Source: Alphaproteobacteria bacterium
GTDB lineage: Bacteria; Pseudomonadota; Alphaproteobacteria; Geminicoccales; Geminicoccaceae
NCBI GenBank assembly: GCA_026982705.1
Contig: JALSGP010000039.1
Coordinates: 62,001 to 126,000 of the forward strand
Direction: 5' to 3'
DNA length: 64,000 bases
Positions within the stretch are counted from its first letter, which is position 1, and every line of letters starts with the position of its first letter. Shown here in pieces: positions 53,474-64,000 of the stretch. The notes beneath the pieces are model-generated. The model saw nothing but the letters and a program-made list of their open reading frames with translations. It was not told where the DNA came from and ran no database searches. The position numbers and the translations under genes were made by a program.

Positions 53474-54603
53474 GCGCGTGCCTCCATCACACGGTCGAGA
53501 TCCCCGTATTGATACCAGGCGGCGCAGGCCCCCTCGGAGGAGACCATGAGGGCGCCGAGCGGGGTCTCGGGCGTGCAGGCGGTCCCGAACACCTTGCACT
53601 GCCAGGGCTTGAGCACGCCCTTGAGGACCTCGCCGCACTGGCAGGAGCGGGGATCGGCGATCTTGAGGGCGGGAATCGAGAAGCGCCGTTCGGCATCGAA
53701 GCGCGCATAGGCGTCCCGGATGCGCACGCCGGAATGGTCGATGGAGCCGAGCCCGCGCCACTCGAAGAATTCCCGCAGCTCGAACACCCGCTCGATGGCG
53801 GCGAGGGCGGCGCGATTGCCTTCCTCCCGTACCACACGGTGGTACTGGTTCTCCACCCGCGGACGCCCCTCGCGGATCTGCACCAGTACCCGCCAGAGGG
53901 CATGCAGGATGTCGAGCGGCTCGAAGCCCGCGATGACCACCGGCCGCCCGTAGACCTCGGGAATGAAGCGGTAGGGCCGGGTCCCGATGACGGCGCTCAC
54001 GTGGCCGGGGCCGAGGAAGCCGTCCAGCTGCATGTCGGGACTGTCGAGAATGGCCTTGATGGTGGGAATGATGGTGATGTGGTTGCAGAAGACCGAGAAG
54101 TTGCGGATGCCCTCGCGCTCCGCCTGGAGGATAGTGAGGGCGGTGGCGGGCATGGTGGTCTCGAAGCCGAGTCCGAAGAAGACCACCTCCCGGTCGGGAT
54201 GGCGGCGGGCGATGGCCAGCGCATCGAGGGGCGAATAGACCATGCGCACGTCGGCGCCTTCCGCCTTGGCCTGCAGCAGGCTCTTGCGCGAGCCCGGCAC
54301 GCGCATGGCGTCGCCGAAGGTGGTGAAGATCACCCCCGGGGTCTCGGCCAGGGCCACGCAGTCGTCCACCCGCCCCATGGGCAGCACGCACACCGGGCAG
54401 CCGGGACCGTGCACGAGCTCGATCTCTTCGGGCAGCATGCCCTCGATGCCGAACTTGAAGATGGCATGGGTATGCCCGCCGCAGACCTCCATGATGGAGA
54501 GGGGGCGCTCGCGGCAGGTGGGAATGTCGGCCACCAGACCCTCGATCGCGGCGACAAGCCGCCGTGCCCTTTCCGGGTCGCGGAATTCGTCCACGAACTT
54601 CAT
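53470..54603 (-). CDS. hypD: Hydrogenase maturation protein HypD
   Basis: HypD is the [4Fe-4S] scaffold on which, with HypC, the Fe(CN)2CO unit is built. The 377-residue protein shows [51 protein letters not shown], and the C-terminal cluster cysteines ([37 protein letters not shown]-like region). Its ATG overlaps the SIS gene stop (ATGA). Confidence 0.97.
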   Translation of the reverse strand: [377 protein letters not shown]

Positions 54604-55289
54604 GACCGTTCTCCCGCCGCCGCATCGCCGCCGCGCCGATGGTCGGCCAGCAGCGTGTGCACGAGATCCCAGAGGATGTGGTAGATGGTGACGTGGGCCT
54701 CCTGCACCCGGTGGATGCTGTCGGTTTCCACCACGAGACAGTGGTCGAGGCCGAGCCGCGCCATCTCGCCCCCGGTGTGGCCGGCGAGGCCGATGGTCTT
54801 CAGACCGAGCCGCTTCGCCTCGCGGAAGGCGCGCACCAGATTGGGCGAGTTGCCGCTGGTCGAGAGGCCGATCAGGGCATCGCCGGGGCGGGCCTGGGCG
54901 ATGAGCTGACGGGCGAAGACGTGTTCGTAGCCCACGTCGTTGGCGACCGCGGTGATCATGGTGCGGTCGCAGCTGAGATCGACGGCGGTGAGGGCCGGGC
55001 GGCCGGCGGTGATGGGATGGAGGAATTCCACCGCCACGTGGGCGGCATCGCAGGCCGAGCCGCCGTTGCCCATGGCGAACAGGCGCCCGCCGCCCCGGAA
55101 GACCTCGGCGAGGGTGCGGGCACAGGCCACCACCGCCTCGGCGTTGCGGGCGAAGAACGTCTCGATCACCCGCAGATGGTGGGCGCTCTTCTGGCGGACC
55201 GACTCCACCAGTGCCGCCTCGAGGGCGGCGGGGTCCTGCCGGCGCCCGTGGAGGAAGGGATAGAGACCGGACAGCGCGTCCTCGGACAT
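54600..55289 (-). CDS. SIS-domain sugar-phosphate isomerase homologue in the hyp operon
   Basis: A 229-residue SIS-fold protein close to D-sedoheptulose-7-phosphate isomerase (GmhA): MGNGGSACDAAHVAVEFLHP, LSCDRTMITAVANDVGYEHVF, LIGLSTSGNSPNLVRAFREAKRLGLKTIGLAGHTGGEMA, and the closing EAHVTIYHILWDLVHTLL. An extra ~40-residue N-terminal helix precedes the domain. It lies between hypC and hypD, overlapping hypD by four bases, so it is co-translated with the Fe(CN)2CO assembly genes rather than with LPS genes (none are present). Its role here is unknown; co-option of a sugar-phosphate-binding fold for hydrogenase ligand chemistry is only a hypothesis. Confidence 0.86.
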   Translation of the reverse strand: MSEDALSGLYPFLHGRRQDPAALEAALVESVRQKSAHHLRVIETFFARNAEAVVACARTLAEVFRGGGRLFAMGNGGSACDAAHVAVEFLHPITAGRPALTAVDLSCDRTMITAVANDVGYEHVFARQLIAQARPGDALIGLSTSGNSPNLVRAFREAKRLGLKTIGLAGHTGGEMARLGLDHCLVVETDSIHRVQEAHVTIYHILWDLVHTLLADHRRGGDAAAGERS

Positions 55290-55300
55290 GGCCCCACTCC

Positions 55301-55582: not shown

Positions 55583-57934
55583 TCATCCCTCCGCGATGAG
55601 CCGGGCCGCCGCGGCCGCCAGCTGGCCGAGGGCGAGGCCCCCGTCCCCGGCCGGCACCGCCCGCGGCAGCAGGACCTCGAGACCCCGTCCCGCGAGATCC
55701 GCCACCACCGCCTCGGTGAGCAGACGGTTGTGGAAACAGCCGCCGGAGAGGGCCACGTGACGGAGACCGTGGGCCGCCGCCAGATCGGCCGCGAGATCGG
55801 CGAGGGTGGCGGCGAGGGCCCGGTGGAAGCGGTGGGCGAGGCGGGCGGGATCGGTGCCGCACGCGAGGCCCGCCAGGAGGTCCCTCCACAGCGGCGCCGG
55901 GTCGAGCCGCCACAGATCGCCTTCCCGCACGAGGCGGAGCCGCGGCGGCGGTTCCTCCCCGCCGCGGACACCCGCCGCCAGCGCCTCCAGCCACATGGCG
56001 GCCTCCCCCTCGTAGGCCTGCCGGTCGTGGGGAAAGCCGAGCAGGGCCGCCGCCGCGTCGAACAGGCGGCCGGCGGAACTGGTCCGCGGGACGGGGATCC
56101 GGCCGTCCAGCAGCGGGGCGAGGCGGGCCGATTCGGCGGCGAGACGGCGCCGCAGCGCCTCCGGCAGGTGCGTCGGGACGGTGGCATCGAGGACGTGGAG
56201 ATGGGCCGTCAGCATCCGCCGGGGCTCGCGGGCCGCCCGCTCGCCGCCGGGCATGGGCACGGGCCGCAGGCTCCCGACACGCCGCGGCGCGCCGAGATCG
56301 CCGACGAAGACCTCGCAGCCCCAGATCGTCCCGTCCTCGCCCCAGCCGGTGCCGTCCAGCACGAGCCCGACCGCCGCCGCGCCGGGACCGAAGCCGTGCT
56401 CCGCCAGCACGGCGGCGAAGTGGGCCGCGTGATGCTGGACCTCCACCACCGGCACGCCCAGCTCCCGCGCCAGCTCCTCGCCGAGGGCGCGGCCGCGGTA
56501 GCCGGGATGGCGATCGATCACCACCGCCCGCGGCCGGAAGCCGAACAGCCGGAAGAACAGCTCGCGGCTCTCCCGCCATGCCTCCTCCACCCGGGCATCG
56601 GCGAGATCGCCGTGGTGGGACGAGAGGACGGCGGCACCCTCCACCAGGAGACCGAAGCAGTTCTTGAGATCGCCGCCCACCGCGAAGAGCGGCGGTGCGG
56701 CGGCGAGCCGGGGATGGAGGTGGATCGGCTCCGGCACCCAGCCACGGGCGCGCCGCAGGAGCATGGGTGCGCCCGCCACCGTCCGCACCACCGAATCGTC
56801 GACGCGGTTGGCGATGGGGCGATCGTGCAGGAGGAAGACGTCAGCGATCGCGGCGAGACGGACCCGCGCCTCCTTCTCGTCGATCACCTGCGGTTCGTCG
56901 GAGAGATTGCCGCTGGTCATCACCACCGGCACCTCCAGCCGCCGCATCATCAGGAGATGCAGCGGCGTGTACGGCAGCATGAAGCCCAGAAGATGGAGGT
57001 CCGGTGCCACCTCCGGCGGCAGCCGCTCCGATCCCGCCGCCTCCAGCAGCACGATGGGCGCCCGGGCGCCGGCCAACAGGGCCTCCTCCCGCGCGGACAG
57101 GCGGGCGTAGCGGCGGATGACGGCGGGATCGCGGGCCATGAGGGCGAAGGGCTTGCGGTCGCGACGCTTGCGCGCGCGCAGCCGGCGTACCGCCGCCGCG
57201 TCGGTGGCGAGACAGGCGAGATGGAAGCCGCCGAGACCCTTGACGGCGACGATGAAGCCGCGCCGCAGCAGTCCCGCCACCGCGTCGACGGGGTCGAGCT
57301 GGCTGAAGGCGTCGAAGGGCACGGCGCCGCCGTCCGGTCGCTCCAGCCAGGCGCGGGGACCGCAGGCGTGGCAGGCGGTGGGCTGGGCGTGGAAACGGCG
57401 GTCGGCGGGATCAGCGTACTCGCGTGCGCAATCCCCGCACATGGGGAAGGCGCGCATGGTGGTGCGGGCGCGGTCGTAGGGAATGCCCTCGAGGATGGAG
57501 AAGCGCGGTCCGCAGCGGGTGCAGTTCAGGAAAGGATAGCGGTAGCGGCGGTCGAAGGGATCGGTCAGTTCGCGGGCACAGTCCGGACAGAGGGCGGCAT
57601 CGGGCGGCACCACCGGCCGCGGGCCGCCGCCGGCGTCGCTGGTCTCGATGCGGAAGTCGTCGGCTTCCAGCGTCGCGAGCTCCTCGCGCTCCACCGCCTC
57701 GACGCGGGCGAGGGGCGGTGCCTCGCGGCGCAGGCGCTCGACCAGCGCCGAAAGGGCGGGCGCCGGTCCGGCCGCCTCCACCACCACGCCGTCGCCCTCG
57801 TTGCGCACCCGCCCCACCAGGCCCAGTTCGCGGGCGATGCGCCAGACGGTGGGACGGAAGCCCACCCCCTGCACCACCCCGCGCACCCGCAGGCGCACGG
57901 CCAGAGAGGAGGGGGAGGTGGCGGGCGCGCTCAT
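55583..57934 (-). CDS. hypF: Carbamoyltransferase HypF
   Basis: HypF makes carbamoyl adenylate from carbamoyl phosphate and transfers the carbamoyl group to HypE. The 783-residue protein has the full domain set: acylphosphatase (GVVQGVGFRPTVWRIA), two zinc fingers (CPDC..CTRCG; CGDC..CHACG), YrdC-like (KRRDRKPFALMARD, MTSGNLSDEPQVI), and the C-terminal carbamoyltransferase (HHAAHFAAVLAEH, DGTGWGEDGTIWG, LSGGCFHNRLL). ATG 57934 overlaps the NHL gene stop (ATGA). Confidence 0.97.
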   Translation of the reverse strand: MSAPATSPSSLAVRLRVRGVVQGVGFRPTVWRIARELGLVGRVRNEGDGVVVEAAGPAPALSALVERLRREAPPLARVEAVEREELATLEADDFRIETSDAGGGPRPVVPPDAALCPDCARELTDPFDRRYRYPFLNCTRCGPRFSILEGIPYDRARTTMRAFPMCGDCAREYADPADRRFHAQPTACHACGPRAWLERPDGGAVPFDAFSQLDPVDAVAGLLRRGFIVAVKGLGGFHLACLATDAAAVRRLRARKRRDRKPFALMARDPAVIRRYARLSAREEALLAGARAPIVLLEAAGSERLPPEVAPDLHLLGFMLPYTPLHLLMMRRLEVPVVMTSGNLSDEPQVIDEKEARVRLAAIADVFLLHDRPIANRVDDSVVRTVAGAPMLLRRARGWVPEPIHLHPRLAAAPPLFAVGGDLKNCFGLLVEGAAVLSSHHGDLADARVEEAWRESRELFFRLFGFRPRAVVIDRHPGYRGRALGEELARELGVPVVEVQHHAAHFAAVLAEHGFGPGAAAVGLVLDGTGWGEDGTIWGCEVFVGDLGAPRRVGSLRPVPMPGGERAAREPRRMLTAHLHVLDATVPTHLPEALRRRLAAESARLAPLLDGRIPVPRTSSAGRLFDAAAALLGFPHDRQAYEGEAAMWLEALAAGVRGGEEPPPRLRLVREGDLWRLDPAPLWRDLLAGLACGTDPARLAHRFHRALAATLADLAADLAAAHGLRHVALSGGCFHNRLLTEAVVADLAGRGLEVLLPRAVPAGDGGLALGQLAAAAARLIAEG

Positions 57935-59094
57935 GACGCCAGCTCCCACAGCAGGACCCGATCGTTCCCGGTATCGGCGACGGCCAGCCGGCGGCCGCGA
58001 TGGGAAAGCCCGTAGGGCCAGCACAGGCTGTCACGGGCGGGCGGGCGCCAGCGATTGTCGCCGCGGGATGAGGCATCCGGCTGGCCGGCGAGGGCGAGGG
58101 CGGCGCTCCCGGAAGGCGCGTCGGCGGCGAAGGCCAGCAGCCGGGAGTTGGCGGTGTCCGCCACCACCAGCCGTCCGTCCGCCAGGACCGTCAGGGCGTA
58201 GGGCATGGCCAGCGTCGCGGGGCCGGGCTCGTTCCGTCCGCGGTTGTGGCCCTCGGAGACCATGTCGGGCTGGCCCAGCACCCGATCGCAGGGCGCCCCG
58301 TCGCGGTCGGGAATCCGATCCCAGATCATGATCCGGCTGGTGCCGGCATCGGCCACGAACAGCCGTCCCTCCGTCACCCAGACGGCGTGGGGCCAGCGCA
58401 TGCCCACGGCATCCAGGCCGCGGCCCGCCGCCTCGTCCCGGGCCCGGGGATGGGGCTGGCCGAGCACCAGGTCCGCCTCCCGCCGGGGCGAGTCGGGCGG
58501 GCGGGTCCACATGAGCACGCGCCGATTGCCGGCGTCGGCGACCCACAGCCGTCCCTCCCCGTCGAGATGGAGCCCGCACGGCCAGTGCAGGGTGGTGCCG
58601 TCGGGAGTCGATCCGCGATTGGGGAGATCGCCGTCGAAGCGCTCCTGCCCCAGGAGCCCCTCGGGCATGCGGTCGGGCCGGTCGGGCGGGCCCGCGAAGA
58701 CGAGGATGCGGTGGTTGAAGGAATCGGCCACGAACAGCCGGCTCCCGTCGCCCGCCAGCCCCACCGGCAGCCGCAGCCCCCGCGGGCCCACCTCGCCGCC
58801 GCGGTTGGGACGCTCCTCCCGGGGACCGGCCTGCCCCCACCAGCCGTCGGCGGGCCGTCCGTCGGCCGCGGGATCCTCCCACAGCAGCAGCCGGTGGTGA
58901 CCGCTGTCCGCCACCAGGAGGCGCCCGTCGGCGAGCCACAGCACCCCGCGGGGGCCGAAGAGGGTCCGGAGGTCGGCGGCCACCGGCCCCACCGGCGCAT
59001 CCGGCAGCCGCCCCAGGATCACCCGGGCGCCCTCCGGATCCAGCAGCGGCGGCAAGGTGGGACTCGCCCGGGGCGGTCGCAGGGTCACCCTCAT
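57931..59094 (-). CDS. NHL-repeat beta-propeller of the hydrogenase locus
   Basis: A 387-residue cytosolic protein without signal peptide, built of repeated NHL blades such as GRLLVADSGHHRLLLWEDP, SRLFVADSFNHRILVFAGPP, GRLWVADAGNRRVLMWTRPP, GRLFVADAGTSRIMIWDRIP, GRLVVADTANSRLLAFAAD and RRLAVADTGNDRVLLWELAS, about six blades. NHL proteins of this kind are regular companions of group 1h [NiFe]-hydrogenase genes, but what they do is not established; a scaffold for the complex is likely. Four-base overlaps join it to the NifU-Rieske gene and to hypF. Confidence 0.92.
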   Translation of the reverse strand: MRVTLRPPRASPTLPPLLDPEGARVILGRLPDAPVGPVAADLRTLFGPRGVLWLADGRLLVADSGHHRLLLWEDPAADGRPADGWWGQAGPREERPNRGGEVGPRGLRLPVGLAGDGSRLFVADSFNHRILVFAGPPDRPDRMPEGLLGQERFDGDLPNRGSTPDGTTLHWPCGLHLDGEGRLWVADAGNRRVLMWTRPPDSPRREADLVLGQPHPRARDEAAGRGLDAVGMRWPHAVWVTEGRLFVADAGTSRIMIWDRIPDRDGAPCDRVLGQPDMVSEGHNRGRNEPGPATLAMPYALTVLADGRLVVADTANSRLLAFAADAPSGSAALALAGQPDASSRGDNRWRPPARDSLCWPYGLSHRGRRLAVADTGNDRVLLWELAS

Positions 59095-59939
59095 CCCGGA
59101 CCTCCCGTCCGCACCTCGACGCGATCGCCCACCAGCCGCACCGCCCGGACCTCAAGCTGCACCTCCGGCACCGTCAGACATTCGCCCGAGCGCAGGTCGT
59201 AGCGGAAGCCGTGGTGGGGGCAGACGAGGACGCCGTCACGCACCTCGCCGCCGGCGAGGGGGAGGCCGAGATGGGCGCAGGCGTCGACGAAACAGCTCAC
59301 CACCGGCCCGGTGCGGGCGAGGATCAGCCGCTCGCCGCCCACTTCCCGGAGGAGGATGCCGCCTTCCGGGATCTCCTCGAGGCGGCCCGCCGGATGCCAG
59401 GTCCCGTCGCCGGCGGCGAAGGGGCTGGTGAAGGCCGGCCGCGGGTCGCCGCCGCCACCGGCCGCGACCTGTTCGATGCGGGTGATCTCCGGACAGTGGG
59501 CCTCGATGGCCTTCCGGACGCCGGCATAGAAGGTGAGGGTGGATGCGGGACAGCCGTCGCAGTTGCCGAGGAAGCGCAGCCGCACCCGATCCGGCGGGAT
59601 CACCTCCACCAGCTCCACGTCGCCGCCGTGGCCGCGCAGCATCGGGCGCACCGACTCGAGCGCCGTCTCCACCCGCTCCTGCAGCGACGGCCGGAGGACG
59701 CCGAGGCGCCGGAGAGCGGCGTAGACGAAGGGATCGGCGACGAGTTCGCGCAGCCGCTCGCGACAGGCGGCATCCTCCCGCAGACCGCGGATCAGCCGGG
59801 TCACCGCCTCGCGATAGAAGCCCTCCACGGAATCGCGCCAGCGTCGGGCGAGCCGCCCCGGGGCGTCGCCGACATCGGCGAGGGCCGCCTCGAGCGCCGC
59901 CAGCTCCTCCAGCGTTCGCCGCAGTTCGCCCCCGTTCAC
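59091..59939 (-). CDS. NifU-like / Rieske iron-sulfur fusion protein
   Basis: A 282-residue fusion. Residues 1-85 are helical with no known motif. Residues ~90-155 form a NifU C-terminal domain with C127-D-G-C130. Residues ~180-280 form a Rieske domain with C221-A-H223 and C240-P-H-H243, the ligands of a [2Fe-2S] cluster. Similar proteins (HhyE/HucE type) accompany high-affinity hydrogenases and are proposed electron relays from the small subunit to the quinone pool or respiratory chain. GTG start with GAGG upstream. Overlaps the NHL gene (ATGA). Confidence 0.9.
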   Translation of the reverse strand: MNGGELRRTLEELAALEAALADVGDAPGRLARRWRDSVEGFYREAVTRLIRGLREDAACRERLRELVADPFVYAALRRLGVLRPSLQERVETALESVRPMLRGHGGDVELVEVIPPDRVRLRFLGNCDGCPASTLTFYAGVRKAIEAHCPEITRIEQVAAGGGGDPRPAFTSPFAAGDGTWHPAGRLEEIPEGGILLREVGGERLILARTGPVVSCFVDACAHLGLPLAGGEVRDGVLVCPHHGFRYDLRSGECLTVPEVQLEVRAVRLVGDRVEVRTGGPG

Positions 59940-59947
59940 CCCTCACC

Positions 59948-60172
59948 TCAACGGTACTTGAGGTCCCGGAACAGCCAGGGCTGGGCGAAACCGCCCGCGA
60001 AGCCGGCCGACGCCGCCGCCAGCCACGGCGGCAGTCCCGCGAGGACCAGCACCAGGAACAGTACGGCGGTGAAGAGGATGCCGAGGCCCAGCATCCGGAA
60101 AACCGCCCCGTAGTCCTGGAACAGTTGTCCCCGGAAGAACAGGATCATGCTCTGTTTGGCCATCTCCCACAT
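59948..60172 (-). CDS. 74-residue two-helix membrane protein
   Basis: No family recognised. After an amphipathic start (MWEMAKQSMILFFRGQLFQDYG) come a hydrophobic helix (MLGLGILFTAVLFLVLVLAGLP) and a shorter Ala/Gly-rich one (WLAAASAGFAGGFAQPWLF), ending DLKYR. GGAGG lies before ATG 60172. Eight bases separate it from the NifU-Rieske gene. Its place between TPR and electron-relay genes makes a membrane anchor for the hydrogenase complex plausible. Confidence 0.82.
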   Translation of the reverse strand: MWEMAKQSMILFFRGQLFQDYGAVFRMLGLGILFTAVLFLVLVLAGLPPWLAAASAGFAGGFAQPWLFRDLKYR

Positions 60173-60190
60173 GGGCGCCTCCGTTCCGGA

Positions 60191-60385
60191 TCAGATCAGG
60201 GCGTAGAGAACGAGGCCCACCACCACGCCGGTGGTGCCGGCCAGGGGGCCGTAGAAGGCCCCCATCATGGCCGCCAGTTCGCGTCCGAGATCGCGGGCGG
60301 CGAGGACCATGCCGCCGACGGCGCCCCCGACGACGGACGCGACGAGACCGGCGATGAACGCCACGAGGACACTGGCCACGGTCAC
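60191..60385 (-). CDS. 64-residue two-helix membrane protein
   Basis: No family recognised. Two hydrophobic segments (VASVLVAFIAGLVASVVGGAVGGMVL and FYGPLAGTTGVVVGLVLYALI) flank a short polar loop (AARDLGRELAAMMG). Small-residue motifs (GxxxG-like) suggest helix packing or oligomers. GTG 60385 overlaps the TPR gene stop (GTGA) with GGAGG nine bases upstream. Likely works with the next gene as a small membrane module. Confidence 0.8.
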   Translation of the reverse strand: MTVASVLVAFIAGLVASVVGGAVGGMVLAARDLGRELAAMMGAFYGPLAGTTGVVVGLVLYALI

Positions 60386-61413
60386 GACATCCCTCCTCCG
60401 TCTCCGTTCGGCGGCGGATCCTCCGCCGCCCCATTGCCGCGTGCGCGCACCTCGCGCAGCTCGTCCAGCAGTTCCGCCACCGCCGCCGCCCGTGCCGTCT
60501 CGCCGTGGGCGGTGAAGAGGGCGTGCGCCTCCGCCAGCAGACGGGCCGCCTCCCGGCGACGGCGGGGATTGCCCGCCTCCGGCCGTTCGGGATCGTCGGG
60601 CAGGGCGAGGAGGCATTGCGCCAGGTTGGCGACGGTATTGGCGTATTCCACCGGCGCCCGCTCGCGGTCGCGGACCCGCAGGGCGGCCCGATAGGCCTCG
60701 AGCGCCCGCAGACGATTGGCCAGCGGATGGCCGCTCCGGACGCTCTGGAGCGCATTGCCGAGATTGTTCTGCAGCATCGCCCATTCGCGGGGATGGGCCC
60801 GGGGATCCAGGGCGGCGAGGCCGGCCTCGAAGCACTGCACGGCGAGGGCCTCGCGCATGCCGCCGGCGGTGTCGGCGAAGGCCATGGCGAGAAAGGCGGT
60901 GGCCAGATTGTTCTGGAGCAGGGCGAACTCGCGGGGATGGCGTTCCCGGTCGAACACCCGCAGGGCCCGCTGATAGGCCGCCACGGCCTCGCGCAGGGCC
61001 ACCCGTCCCGAGTTGGCCAAGGCGTGGAGGACCACGCCCAGGAGCATGTCGAGATCGGCCCGCTCCTCCGCATCGCCCTCCCGTTCCAGCACGGGACGGG
61101 CCTCCACCAGCAGATCCCGGGCCGCCTCGAGGGCGGCGATGCCGCCGTCGGGGAGTTCGCGCAGGACCGCCGCCAGTTGCACCCGCACCCGGGCGGCGGC
61201 GAGCGGTCGCCCGGATCCGGCCAGCTCCAAGGCCCGCTCCAACAGCCGCCGCGCCGCCAGCAGATCCTCCCGCCGCCGGGGACGATCGCGCAGTTGACGC
61301 GCCAGCTCCACCAGCATGGCGATGCGTTCCTCGATGTCGTGGTCCGCCTCCTCCACCATGCGCAGAGCGGCGGTCACCGTGGCGGCGACACGGTCCATGG
61401 CGGCGATGTCCAT
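60382..61413 (-). CDS. TPR protein of the hydrogenase locus
   Basis: A 343-residue all-helical protein with tetratricopeptide-like repeats; clear units are YQRALRVFDRERHPREFALLQNNLATAFLAM, FEAGLAALDPRAHPREWAMLQNNLGNALQSV and YRAALRVRDRERAPVEYANTVANLAQCLLAL, each about 45-50 residues. The rest is helical and Arg/Glu-rich. Such TPR proteins recur in group 1h hydrogenase clusters and are thought to aid assembly; this is family context, not shown by the sequence. ATG 61413 has GGGAGGG almost touching it; ATG 61398 is an alternative. Confidence 0.87.
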   Translation of the reverse strand: MDIAAMDRVAATVTAALRMVEEADHDIEERIAMLVELARQLRDRPRRREDLLAARRLLERALELAGSGRPLAAARVRVQLAAVLRELPDGGIAALEAARDLLVEARPVLEREGDAEERADLDMLLGVVLHALANSGRVALREAVAAYQRALRVFDRERHPREFALLQNNLATAFLAMAFADTAGGMREALAVQCFEAGLAALDPRAHPREWAMLQNNLGNALQSVRSGHPLANRLRALEAYRAALRVRDRERAPVEYANTVANLAQCLLALPDDPERPEAGNPRRRREAARLLAEAHALFTAHGETARAAAVAELLDELREVRARGNGAAEDPPPNGDGGGMS

Positions 61414-61465: not shown

Positions 61466-61524
61466 ATCGAATTTTCGATATGAAAAGAAAGTTTGCATCT
61501 GAATCCCGTCAAACATCTTGACGG
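61466..61524 (-). promoter_or_regulatory. AT-rich gap with two inverted repeats before the TPR gene
   Basis: The 95-base gap between the unknown gene and the TPR gene is the most AT-rich spot of the locus. It has ATCGAA-TT-TTCGAT (61466-61479) and CCGTCAA-ACATC-TTGACGG (61506-61524), the latter spanning the stop codon of the upstream gene. On the minus strand a TTGACT...TGGATT pair with 17-base spacing could start a second transcript. The hairpin may end or slow transcripts coming from the large subunit. Confidence 0.45.
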
Positions 61525-61844
61525 AACGATTCGAAGACATGCCGCGCGACATAGGCCGCCCGCTCCGGACGGAAGTCGAAACGCAGCGATCGGAGACCGG
61601 GAGCGGCCGGCGGGTTGCGGCGGAAGAAGTCCGCCGCATCCAGGACCCGGTCGCCGCGGGCGTTGCGCCGCTTGAGGAGGAATCCCCCATGGGCGGCATC
61701 CCGCAGGGGGATCAGCCACAGATCCGTCCCTTCCCGCAGAAGGGCGCAGCTCGCCACCGCCTCCAGTCCGGCCGCGCGCACCGCCTCGGCGGAGAAGCGC
61801 AGCCGCCCGTCCACCAGTTCGCCCGCCAGGGCCCCGGCACTCAT
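61509..61844 (-). CDS. 111-residue protein of unknown function in the hydrogenase locus
   Basis: No family recognised. A compact soluble protein: GELVDGRLRFSAEAVRAAGLEAVASCALLREG, then WLIPLRDAAHGGFLLKRRNARGDRVLDAADFFRRN and a basic end (RSLRFDFRPERAAYVARHVFESFRQDV). One cysteine, no membrane segment. The ATG overlaps the protease stop (ATGA), so it is made with the maturation endopeptidase and may act in large-subunit maturation. Confidence 0.8.
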   Translation of the reverse strand: MSAGALAGELVDGRLRFSAEAVRAAGLEAVASCALLREGTDLWLIPLRDAAHGGFLLKRRNARGDRVLDAADFFRRNPPAAPGLRSLRFDFRPERAAYVARHVFESFRQDV

Positions 61845-62320
61845 CGGCCGCCGTCCCCCTCGATCCGGGCGGCGAGGCGGGCCACGAGGCGCGCCACCGC
61901 CCCCGCCACCGCCGGCGACAGCTCCGTCCCATAGTCGAGCCGGGCGGCCTCGATCAGATGGACGCGGACCTCGGCGGGGAAGGCGTCACCCAGCAGTCGG
62001 CGCCCCACGTAGAGGGCATGGGGCCAGCGGAAGTCGTGGAGGCCGCCGCCGGGGGGCGGGGCCTCCGCCGCCTCCTCTCCCGGCAGCTCGAAGAGGGTGC
62101 CGGGGGGGCTGCCGGAGACGGTGGCGTCGACGATGTCGAGGCGGCGGGCCCCGCGCATCCCGTAGACCACCGCCATGCCGTCGGTTCCGGCATCCAGCAG
62201 ACGCACGCCGGCCCGCGCACCGAGGCGCGTCCGCAGGGCCGCGATCACCGCCGGGCCGGCGCCGTCGTCGCCCCGCACGGGATTGCCGCAGCCGATCACC
62301 ACCCACACGGGCGGATCCAC
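61841..62320 (-). CDS. [NiFe]-hydrogenase maturation endopeptidase
   Basis: A 159-residue HupD/HycI-type protease that cuts the C-terminal peptide from the nickel-loaded large subunit. Motifs: GCGNPVRGDDGAGPAVI near the N-terminus (with DDG in place of DEG, as in HycI), LLDAGTDGMAVVYGMRGARRLDIVDATVSG, and VHLIEAARLDYGTELSPAV. Acidic and His residues of the nickel-sensing site are thus present. Starts at GTG, one base after the stop of the Cys-rich gene. Its substrate is probably the large subunit at 63064, whose C-terminal tail is intact in the gene. Confidence 0.92.
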   Translation of the reverse strand: MDPPVWVVIGCGNPVRGDDGAGPAVIAALRTRLGARAGVRLLDAGTDGMAVVYGMRGARRLDIVDATVSGSPPGTLFELPGEEAAEAPPPGGGLHDFRWPHALYVGRRLLGDAFPAEVRVHLIEAARLDYGTELSPAVAGAVARLVARLAARIEGDGGR

Positions 62321-62321
62321 C

Positions 62322-62630
62322 TCAGATGCGCCAGAGGCGACACGACCAGTGCGGCTCCACCGGAACGTCCAGTTCCGGCAGCTCGCACCAGCGGCGGTGG
62401 ACGAGATAGTACATGCAGGTCTCGCACGCCTGTTCCACGCCGGCGTGCAGCACCGGGTTGAGGGTGAAACCCGCCAGCACCAGCCGCCCCTCGAGATCCC
62501 CGCCCCGCGCCCGCAGGGCCTGGATCAGCGTCTGGACCGCCTCGGGCGTGTCGGCACGGGGGCAAACCTCGGTGGCGAGACCGCCCGCCAGCAGATCGTG
62601 AATGCGTCGTCGCAGGGCCGACTCGTCCAC
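62322..62630 (-). CDS. Small Cys-rich hydrogenase-locus protein, paralogue B
   Basis: A 102-residue protein without a known family. The C-terminal half has CETCMYYLVHRRWC and ends EPHWSCRLWRI, giving a CxxC pair, a Trp-Cys and a final Cys. The N-terminal half is helical (LRRRIHDLLAGGLATEV) followed by a short beta-like stretch LEGRLVLAGFTL. It is a tandem paralogue of the gene at 62672. Four conserved cysteines suggest zinc or an Fe-S cluster. GTG start with a strong GGAGGAGGGAG site. One base separates it from the protease gene. Confidence 0.85.
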   Translation of the reverse strand: MDESALRRRIHDLLAGGLATEVCPRADTPEAVQTLIQALRARGGDLEGRLVLAGFTLNPVLHAGVEQACETCMYYLVHRRWCELPELDVPVEPHWSCRLWRI

Positions 62631-62671
62631 GCTCCCTCCTCCTCACCGGACGGACGACCGGGACATTCGGA

Positions 62672-62995
62672 TCAGATGCGCCACAGACGGCACCACCAGT
62701 CGGGCTCGCACGGCAGCGAGATCTCCGGGATGTCGCACCAGCGGCGATGCACGAGATAGTAGATGCACTCCTGACACCGCTGCTGTTCGGGACCGTAGGG
62801 ATGATCCAGGAAGCCCGCGATCACCAGCCGGCCCCGGACGTCGTCCGGGTCCAGCGCCCGGAGCTGGTCGAGGATCTCGGCGAACTCCCGTTCGGTGCGG
62901 GGAATGGGCTCGGTCTCCGTCTCCAGCCCCGCGGCCAGCAGCTCGGCAATATACCGTCGCAGCGCGTCGGGATCGCGCGGTGGTCTGTCGGACAT
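62672..62995 (-). CDS. Small Cys-rich hydrogenase-locus protein, paralogue A
   Basis: A 107-residue protein with the same plan as its neighbour: helical N-terminus (ALRRYIAELLAAGLETE), VRGRLVIAGFL, then CQECIYYLVHRRWC and the end CEPDWWCRLWRI. Shared across both copies: CxxCxYYLVHRRWCxxPE and EPxWxCRLWRI. This copy has one more Cys (PCEPDWW). Both lie directly after the large-subunit gene, so they probably bind or mature it. GGGGGGACC lies ahead of ATG 62995. Confidence 0.86.
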   Translation of the reverse strand: MSDRPPRDPDALRRYIAELLAAGLETETEPIPRTEREFAEILDQLRALDPDDVRGRLVIAGFLDHPYGPEQQRCQECIYYLVHRRWCDIPEISLPCEPDWWCRLWRI

Positions 62996-63063: not shown

Positions 63064-64000
63064 TCAGGCGGTCCGGAACCGCGCCAGCTCGCGGCCGGTG
63101 CGCCGGTCGTAGGCGTGCACGGTGCACACCAGGCAGGAATCGTAGGACCGGCACACGTGGCCCACCTCCACCGGATCGGCGGGATCGGCGATGGGAGTCC
63201 CGATCAGGGCCTCCTCGATGGGGCCACGCTCGCCCGCGTCCGACCGCGGTCCCACGTTCCAGGTGGTGGGCGCGATGATCTGATAGTTCTCGATGCGCCC
63301 GTTCTTCACCTCGATCCAGTGGCACAGGGCCCCGCGGATGGCCTCGGTGGCGCCCCAGCCGCGCCCGTCCCGTTCGGTGGGCTTGACGTACCAGGGCTCG
63401 TCGAGCCGGAACTCGCGCAGGATCCGCTCGGCCTCGCGATAGAGCTTCACCAGTTCGTGCATCCGGGCGAAGTGGCGGAGCAGCACGCTCGCGCCCCCCA
63501 TCTTCCGGTACATGTCCAGGACCAGCGGATCCCTGTGCTGCCACGGCTCGCCGTGGTCGCCGCCGGCGACGAGCTGGCGGGCCAGCGGCCCCGCCTCCAG
63601 GCGACCGAAATGCTCGTGGCGGACCGCCGTCGCCCAGGAATAGCGCCCATCGGGATCGATGTCCGCCTTGGGCGAGGGGCGGGTGCTGCGATCGAAGGGA
63701 TGGAGACCCGAGGGCTCGTCGTACCAGGCGCGGCCGATGTCTTCCCGCACCACCGCCTGATCCACCTCGTGGTGGACATCGGCATGGCCGTCGTAGACGC
63801 CGCCCTTCATGATGACGGCCTTCGCCCGCCCCTCGATGGTGGGACGCTGGTACTTGTCCTCATGGGGGAGATAGCCCCAGCTGATGTAGCGGCCGTGCCC
63901 GCGCCCGTATTTGTCGAGCCCGATGTCCATGCCCATGCGCCAGTAGAGACCGAGGTCGGAATTCGCGTGTTCCGGCTTCTCGTCCAGCCAGGCCAGGAAA
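63064..64000 (-). CDS. hhyL: [NiFe]-hydrogenase large subunit, group 1h-like (C-terminal part)
   Basis: The last ~311 residues of a large subunit; the N-terminus, with the first Cys pair, lies beyond the right edge. The C-terminal nickel motif reads RSYDSCLVCTVH, where the usual DPCxxCxxH has Ser for Pro. After this His come 16 residues (AYDRRTGRELARFRTA) that the maturation protease should remove. Upstream are regions typical of large subunits: RGALCHWIEVKNGRIENYQIIAPTTWNVGPR and EEALIGTPIADPADPVEVGHVCRSYD. These and the companions TPR, NHL and NifU-Rieske suggest a group 1h (former group 5), high-affinity, oxygen-tolerant uptake enzyme. Class assignment is inference; the small subunit is not in view. 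Confidence 0.9.
   Translation of the reverse strand, partial: FLAWLDEKPEHANSDLGLYWRMGMDIGLDKYGRGHGRYISWGYLPHEDKYQRPTIEGRAKAVIMKGGVYDGHADVHHEVDQAVVREDIGRAWYDEPSGLHPFDRSTRPSPKADIDPDGRYSWATAVRHEHFGRLEAGPLARQLVAGGDHGEPWQHRDPLVLDMYRKMGGASVLLRHFARMHELVKLYREAERILREFRLDEPWYVKPTERDGRGWGATEAIRGALCHWIEVKNGRIENYQIIAPTTWNVGPRSDAGERGPIEEALIGTPIADPADPVEVGHVCRSYDSCLVCTVHAYDRRTGRELARFRTA

Follow-up and report, generated by a model that had tools for sequence, protein, structure and literature searches.

Two small cysteine-rich open reading frames, both on the minus strand, lie close to the end of the window, the 64,000-nucleotide stretch of alphaproteobacterial DNA analysed here, at the positions given in the original prediction. 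Copy A (62672–62995) encodes 107 amino acids from an ATG start and directly follows hucL, the gene for a group 2a [NiFe]-hydrogenase large subunit. Copy B (62322–62630) is a 102-amino-acid paralogue with a GTG start. Intergenic distances are short, with 68 nucleotides from the large-subunit stop to the start of A and 41 nucleotides from the stop of A to the start of B. The two proteins are 51% identical and have in common the motif C-x2-C-x-Y-Y-L-V-H-R-R-W-C-x-x-P-E and the terminal E-P-x-W-x-C-R-L-W-R-I, which runs up to the stop codon.

The hucL gene (63064–64000, minus strand) is cut by the end of the window; the complete gene is found on the host contig, as are hucS and a gene for a sigma-54 regulator. 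Because the best solved relative of the large subunit is Mycobacterium smegmatis Huc (PDB codes 7utd/7uus; 622 bits, with the next hydrogenase at 222 bits), we assign the enzyme to group 2a (Huc), the hydrogenases that consume traces of atmospheric H2. HucS is likewise nearest to M. smegmatis Huc, and the accessory genes for HucE, NHL and TPR proteins are present. Downstream of A and B, all on the minus strand, are a hydrogenase maturation protease (61841–62320; TIGR00072, 2.6e-35), a conserved 111-amino-acid protein without a family match (61509–61844), a TPR-like Huc accessory protein recognized by synteny with alr0691-type TPR proteins, having no Pfam match of its own (60382–61413), two small membrane proteins, TM1 (about 64 amino acids, 60191–60385, hydropathy 2.57) and TM2 (about 74 amino acids, 59948–60172, hydropathy 2.81), the NifU–Rieske protein HucE (59091–59939; PF01106, 2.6e-20, and PF00355, 1.1e-15), and an NHL-repeat accessory protein (57931–59094; PF01436, 1.1e-21), followed by hyp genes. 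HucE is required for H2 uptake in M. smegmatis (PMC6883350). The same gene order is annotated on plasmids of Sphingopyxis, Bradyrhizobium, Mesorhizobium and Roseovarius. The 111-amino-acid protein carries a GG-x-LLK-x-RN-x-x-GDRV motif, and other phyla have small proteins in the same slot; within the hyp part lies a gene for a SIS-domain (GmhA-like) protein (54600–55300, minus strand), of which other Huc operons also have one.

Profile and sequence searches with the pair against Pfam, NCBIfam and PDB sequences gave no match. The description of a novel family thus stands in so far as no model exists in the databases searched, and needs amending in that one paper already gives the name putative HiPIP to a gene next to hupLS of Acidithiobacillus ferrooxidans, probably the homologue of A (PMC7735108). 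A genome scan by A/B similarity returned 170 loci, of which 80, from at least four phyla, were kept. A is the gene immediately downstream of hucL in 79 of the 80, a count that takes in two loci (L021 and L059) whose contigs start too near A to show hucL but keep the downstream order. B is next after A in 69. On plasmids, A/B relatives occupy 24 places in 12 records, two per record, and every record has a huc operon. That the same placement recurs in the 80 loci fetched by similarity and in the 12 plasmid records indicates that the pair is not a chance occurrence; the original prediction had asked whether homologues are restricted to hydrogenase loci, and huc genes do adjoin 79 of the 80 loci and each of the 24 plasmid places. 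In the 34 A-bearing genomes that we searched, copies of A and B are almost all in the operon.

A few relatives sit elsewhere. Methylocapsa acidiphila has, besides its operon copy, an orphan A away from huc (L073, 7950–8291), between small GYD-like and PhoU-like genes (named by eye). One Burkholderiales genome has a third, divergent A-like copy (L100, 3827–4327) that heads a separate TPR–HucE–NHL segment about 15 kb from its hucSL–A–B part, and a Rhizobacter metagenome-assembled genome encodes a stand-alone relative of the four-cysteine domain only, starting MQGCASCIYF (L101, 1929–2039, minus strand), near ABC-transporter-like genes and not beside huc. The Roseovarius indicus and Octadecabacter plasmids (L010 and L011) carry huc operons with identical protein accessions, which points to recent plasmid transfer. 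No A/B relative was found on viral contigs, and the search of phages gave one chance hit only.

As the 80 loci had been chosen by A/B itself, we also counted loci by HucL. All 17 HucL proteins at least 75% identical to that of the window are accompanied by A (12 from plasmid loci, two from Nitrospirota and three from a sample drawn evenly across the phylum of the window), and none of seven at 59% identity or below is (Thermus, Sulfobacillus, Mycobacterium, Hymenobacter, Runella and two Nitrospirota hydrogenases; in Hymenobacter the lack of A was read from the annotation, which places a protease gene directly after hucL). In a quick tree, the A-bearing HucL proteins form one clade (SH-aLRT 100) that includes members from Nitrospirota, Acidobacteriota and Myxococcota, and as A-bearing HucL from all phyla fall in it, A has evidently moved between phyla with the enzyme. 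Within this clade B was lost at least three to four times and A never, so we regard A as a core component and B as optional; for the same reason an obligatory heterodimer, which had been proposed for the pair, is unlikely. A and B are parted by a single long branch (support 92/100) and are therefore old paralogues. This agrees with their earlier description as two specialized copies, and a recent local duplication as the origin of the pair is rejected.

AlphaFold models of both proteins (pLDDT 94.8 for A and 96.4 for B) have three N-terminal helices followed by an irregular C-terminal domain with four cysteines. Across 52 distinct A and 52 distinct B tails, the four cysteines (C-x2-C-x9-C-x14-C), the tyrosine of CxxCxY, W-8 and W-3 are invariant, with the proviso that loci were found with patterns spanning parts of the tail, which in part predetermines how conserved those parts look; the CxxC half of the tail lay outside the patterns of the genome scan that gave the 80 loci. 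The original prediction depended on the cysteines being conserved in a wider alignment, which they are in 52 of 52 distinct tails of each protein. A metal site, as it proposed, is likely, and similarity to HiPIPs favours Fe–S over Zn.

The tail, C-x2-C-x-[YF]-Y-x6-C-[DE]-L-P-E-L...W-x-C-x-L-W, resembles HiPIPs, and the cysteine order CX2C-Xn-C-Xn-C typical of these proteins is found in both A and B. The HiPIP at L105 (CDNCMFYKAENEGCQLFPENSVAPAGWCQSW) has the same C-x2-C-x9-C spacing and aromatic positions. Comparison by hhalign of the A/B C-terminal core with 17 HiPIPs gave a probability of 73 and a score of 23.4, which none of 300 permutations with HiPIP columns shuffled and cysteines kept could reach (11.2 ± 2.2, maximum 20.9); these cysteine-preserving permutations indicate that the similarity extends past the cysteines. 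With A only the probability was 47 and with B only 69, whereas the control families put to the same test (HypF zinc fingers, NifU, Rieske and HucS segments) were all below 1%. The HiPIP family search had been launched before the fold-search results for B were collected, in which HiPIPs were the top two of three Foldseek hits in the PDB (E = 0.38 and 2.4, not significant alone). The A model gave noise and no HiPIP in the same search. None of 98 A/B members passes the Pfam cut-off for PF01355; the model reaches at best E = 0.081, in four of the 98, and we therefore describe the domain as HiPIP-like rather than assigning it to that family. It comprises residues 74–107 of A (62675–62776, minus strand; C74-x2-C77-x9-C87-x14-C102-RLWRI), supported by the invariant cysteines and by hhalign with the permutation control, and residues 69–102 of B (62325–62426, minus strand), supported by cysteine conservation and the Foldseek hits. 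A HiPIP-like domain and an Fe–S cluster are supported for both proteins, although not proven.

Classical HiPIPs are exported by the Tat pathway, and those at L104–L107 have Tat-like N termini. By eye and by hydropathy (KD19 at most 1.0), neither A nor B has a twin-arginine signal, signal peptide or membrane segment, which fits a cytoplasmic enzyme.

For the transfer of electrons from Huc-type hydrogenases into the respiratory chain, a detailed structural picture exists only for the M. smegmatis form, with menaquinone and HucM. There, HucM (MSMEG_2261), the product of a gene upstream of hucS, builds up the oligomer and provides a hydrophobic menaquinone stalk; the menaquinone is held by Lys212, Tyr229 and Tyr301 of HucS (PMC10017518). 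DUF1641 is matched by the protein encoded upstream of hucS in M. intracellulare and by the product of a gene close to hucS in both Thermus and Sulfobacillus, and these were taken as HucM by position and family; these Mycobacterium, Thermus and Sulfobacillus Huc loci are without A and B. Conversely, profile searches found HucM/DUF1641 in none of 35 A-bearing genomes (that of the window and 34 others), and no HucM-like open reading frame is present in the 80 A-type loci. A and B as relatives of HucM can be rejected, as HucM has DUF1641, to which A and B have no match, and the distributions are complementary. This exclusion concerns one clade and effectively amounts to a single event, and DUF1641 could just be uncommon among Proteobacteria. 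The Bacteroidota Huc loci of Runella and Hymenobacter have no A or B, and in that of Runella no DUF1641 was seen.

TM1 and TM2 are also linked to this form of the enzyme: of the 68 A-type loci with a hucE gene, 67 encode both, whereas seven other loci encode neither and none was found in HucM-type Huc loci. The two could be a membrane anchor for the HucM-less enzyme. Proteobacterial UbiA is above the cut-off in 15 of 16 A-bearing genomes (narrowly in Nitrospira moscoviensis), and MenD, by which menaquinone was scored with the futalosine route outside the count, is found in two of 16. The bacteria that carry A thus appear, from gene content, to be mostly ubiquinone makers.

Lys212, Tyr229 and Tyr301 (M. 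intracellulare HucS numbering) are identical in all 72 aligned HucS sequences of the A clade. Residues N206-M207-H208, D228 and L229 (numbered as in the window), as well as a deletion of two residues, are fixed in and specific to this clade; they lie in the segments containing Lys212 and Tyr229, which differ as a block (residues 206–229). The quinone site may therefore persist while its surroundings are remodelled. Such remodelling would fit a new docking partner, although this is unproven and neutral clade differences would look similar. As the quinone residues are kept, HucS may remain able to reduce quinone on its own, without any relay. The idea that A and B simply replace HucM-mediated quinone reduction is weakened by these conserved residues and by the Bacteroidota loci that have neither.

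We tentatively favour, at somewhat less than even confidence, a reading in which A and B are cytoplasmic HiPIP-like [4Fe-4S] subunits that serve electron exit towards ubiquinone in HucM-less Huc. Each protein would consist of an N-terminal three-helix part and a C-terminal domain, the four cysteines of which most likely bind one [4Fe-4S] cluster, and the two would be dedicated partners of Huc in one large, mostly proteobacterial, HucM-less clade. We infer that A and B could dock on the HucSL core, take electrons from the distal cluster of HucS and relay them, in concert with HucE, TM1 and TM2, towards the ubiquinone pool. The gene slot between hucL and the protease speaks for this reading, as does the independent proposal made for A. 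ferrooxidans (PMC7735108); the sub-threshold match to PF01355, the absence of a HiPIP hit for the A model and the missing Tat signal count against it, as does the case of glycyl radical enzymes, whose HiPIP-like accessory subunits are not known to carry electrons (PMC12358834). A broader proposal would divide Huc into two architectures, a HucM type that pulls in menaquinone and a HucM-less type, mostly in ubiquinone users, in which the HiPIP-like pair and the two small membrane proteins form a new electron exit to the membrane; we consider this generalization doubtful.

A and B might instead lie off the electron path and be assembly or conformational factors, that is, HiPIP-like Fe–S proteins that stabilize or mature HucSL by inserting a cluster, by giving protection from oxygen during assembly or by holding the lobes together instead of HucM. 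The CX2CXnCXnC subunits of the glycyl radical enzymes BSS, MASS and HPAD, which are HiPIP-like, aid solubility or conformational control (PMC12358834), the pair adjoins the protease gene within a maturation operon, the quinone-site residues of HucS are kept in the A clade too, and the clade-specific residues and deletion described above are what would be expected of a new docking surface. Huc of other phyla, however, matures without A and B using the same hyp set, and we hold a role in assembly to be a serious possibility of lower probability than electron exit. It is improbable, to our minds, that A and B are small zinc-binding structural proteins of a zinc-ribbon-like kind, acting as adaptor or scaffold subunits with a convergent resemblance to HiPIPs: four cysteines would bind Zn equally well and the proteins have no significant PDB fold or Pfam match, but their cysteines are not spaced in the paired CxxC...CxxC of zinc ribbons, and similarity to HiPIPs goes past the cysteine positions whereas the HypF zinc-finger control stays under 1%. 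That they are general proteins found in hydrogenase operons by happenstance is largely refuted and barely credible, since the orphan A of Methylocapsa acidiphila and the Rhizobacter relative, which would suit it, stand against the near-universal placement beside huc in the 80 loci and on plasmids and the genomes that hold almost only operon copies.

The strictly linked pair of probable Fe–S proteins is a concrete, testable candidate for the missing electron-transfer step in a HucM-less clade that takes in many soil and water bacteria, among them Bradyrhizobium, Mesorhizobium, Hyphomicrobium, methanotrophs, Sphingopyxis and N. moscoviensis. The enzyme is already studied in the last of these, and in A. 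ferrooxidans if the homologues there are confirmed. Definition of the A/B family also fills a gap in Pfam and NCBIfam.

The nearest precedent is the 2020 multi-omics study of A. ferrooxidans, which reported a ‘putative HiPIP’, DN052_04130, near hupLS and proposed it or the NifU–Rieske protein as the link to ubiquinone (PMC7735108). Like A, this gene is near the structural genes of a group 2a hupLS operon with hyp genes and a NifU–Rieske gene, and locus order suggests that DN052_04130 and DN052_04125 are the A and B homologues. That study, to which A is likened here by description, covers one species and one gene, without the pair, the clade rule or the exclusion of HucM; what the present analysis adds is a definition of the family, its obligate association with a single Huc clade, the early divergence of A from B, a distribution complementary to that of HucM and the linkage of TM1 and TM2. 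TM1 and TM2 (59948–60385) are reminiscent of the small membrane open reading frames asr0689 and asr0690 of Nostoc. HucM resembles A and B as a small accessory gene of the Huc operon present throughout a clade, yet has no sequence relation to them; it forms a coiled-coil stalk, has no cysteine cluster and is the product of a gene upstream of hucS. HucE, like A and B, is an Fe–S protein of the operon and a proposed electron acceptor, but has an unrelated fold and occurs in Huc operons of both kinds. Comparable small Fe–S proteins with a CX2CXnCXnC motif are, by description, the HiPIP-like accessory subunits BSS beta, MASS beta/gamma and HPAD gamma, which likewise dock on a large catalytic subunit, although that of a different enzyme, a glycyl radical enzyme. 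With HiPIPs of PF01355, A and B share the cysteine order, CxxCx[FY], an aromatic-rich C-x-x-W end and profile similarity beyond the cysteines; they differ in the absence of a Tat signal, the extra N-terminal helical part, the RLWRI terminal tail and a match below the Pfam threshold.
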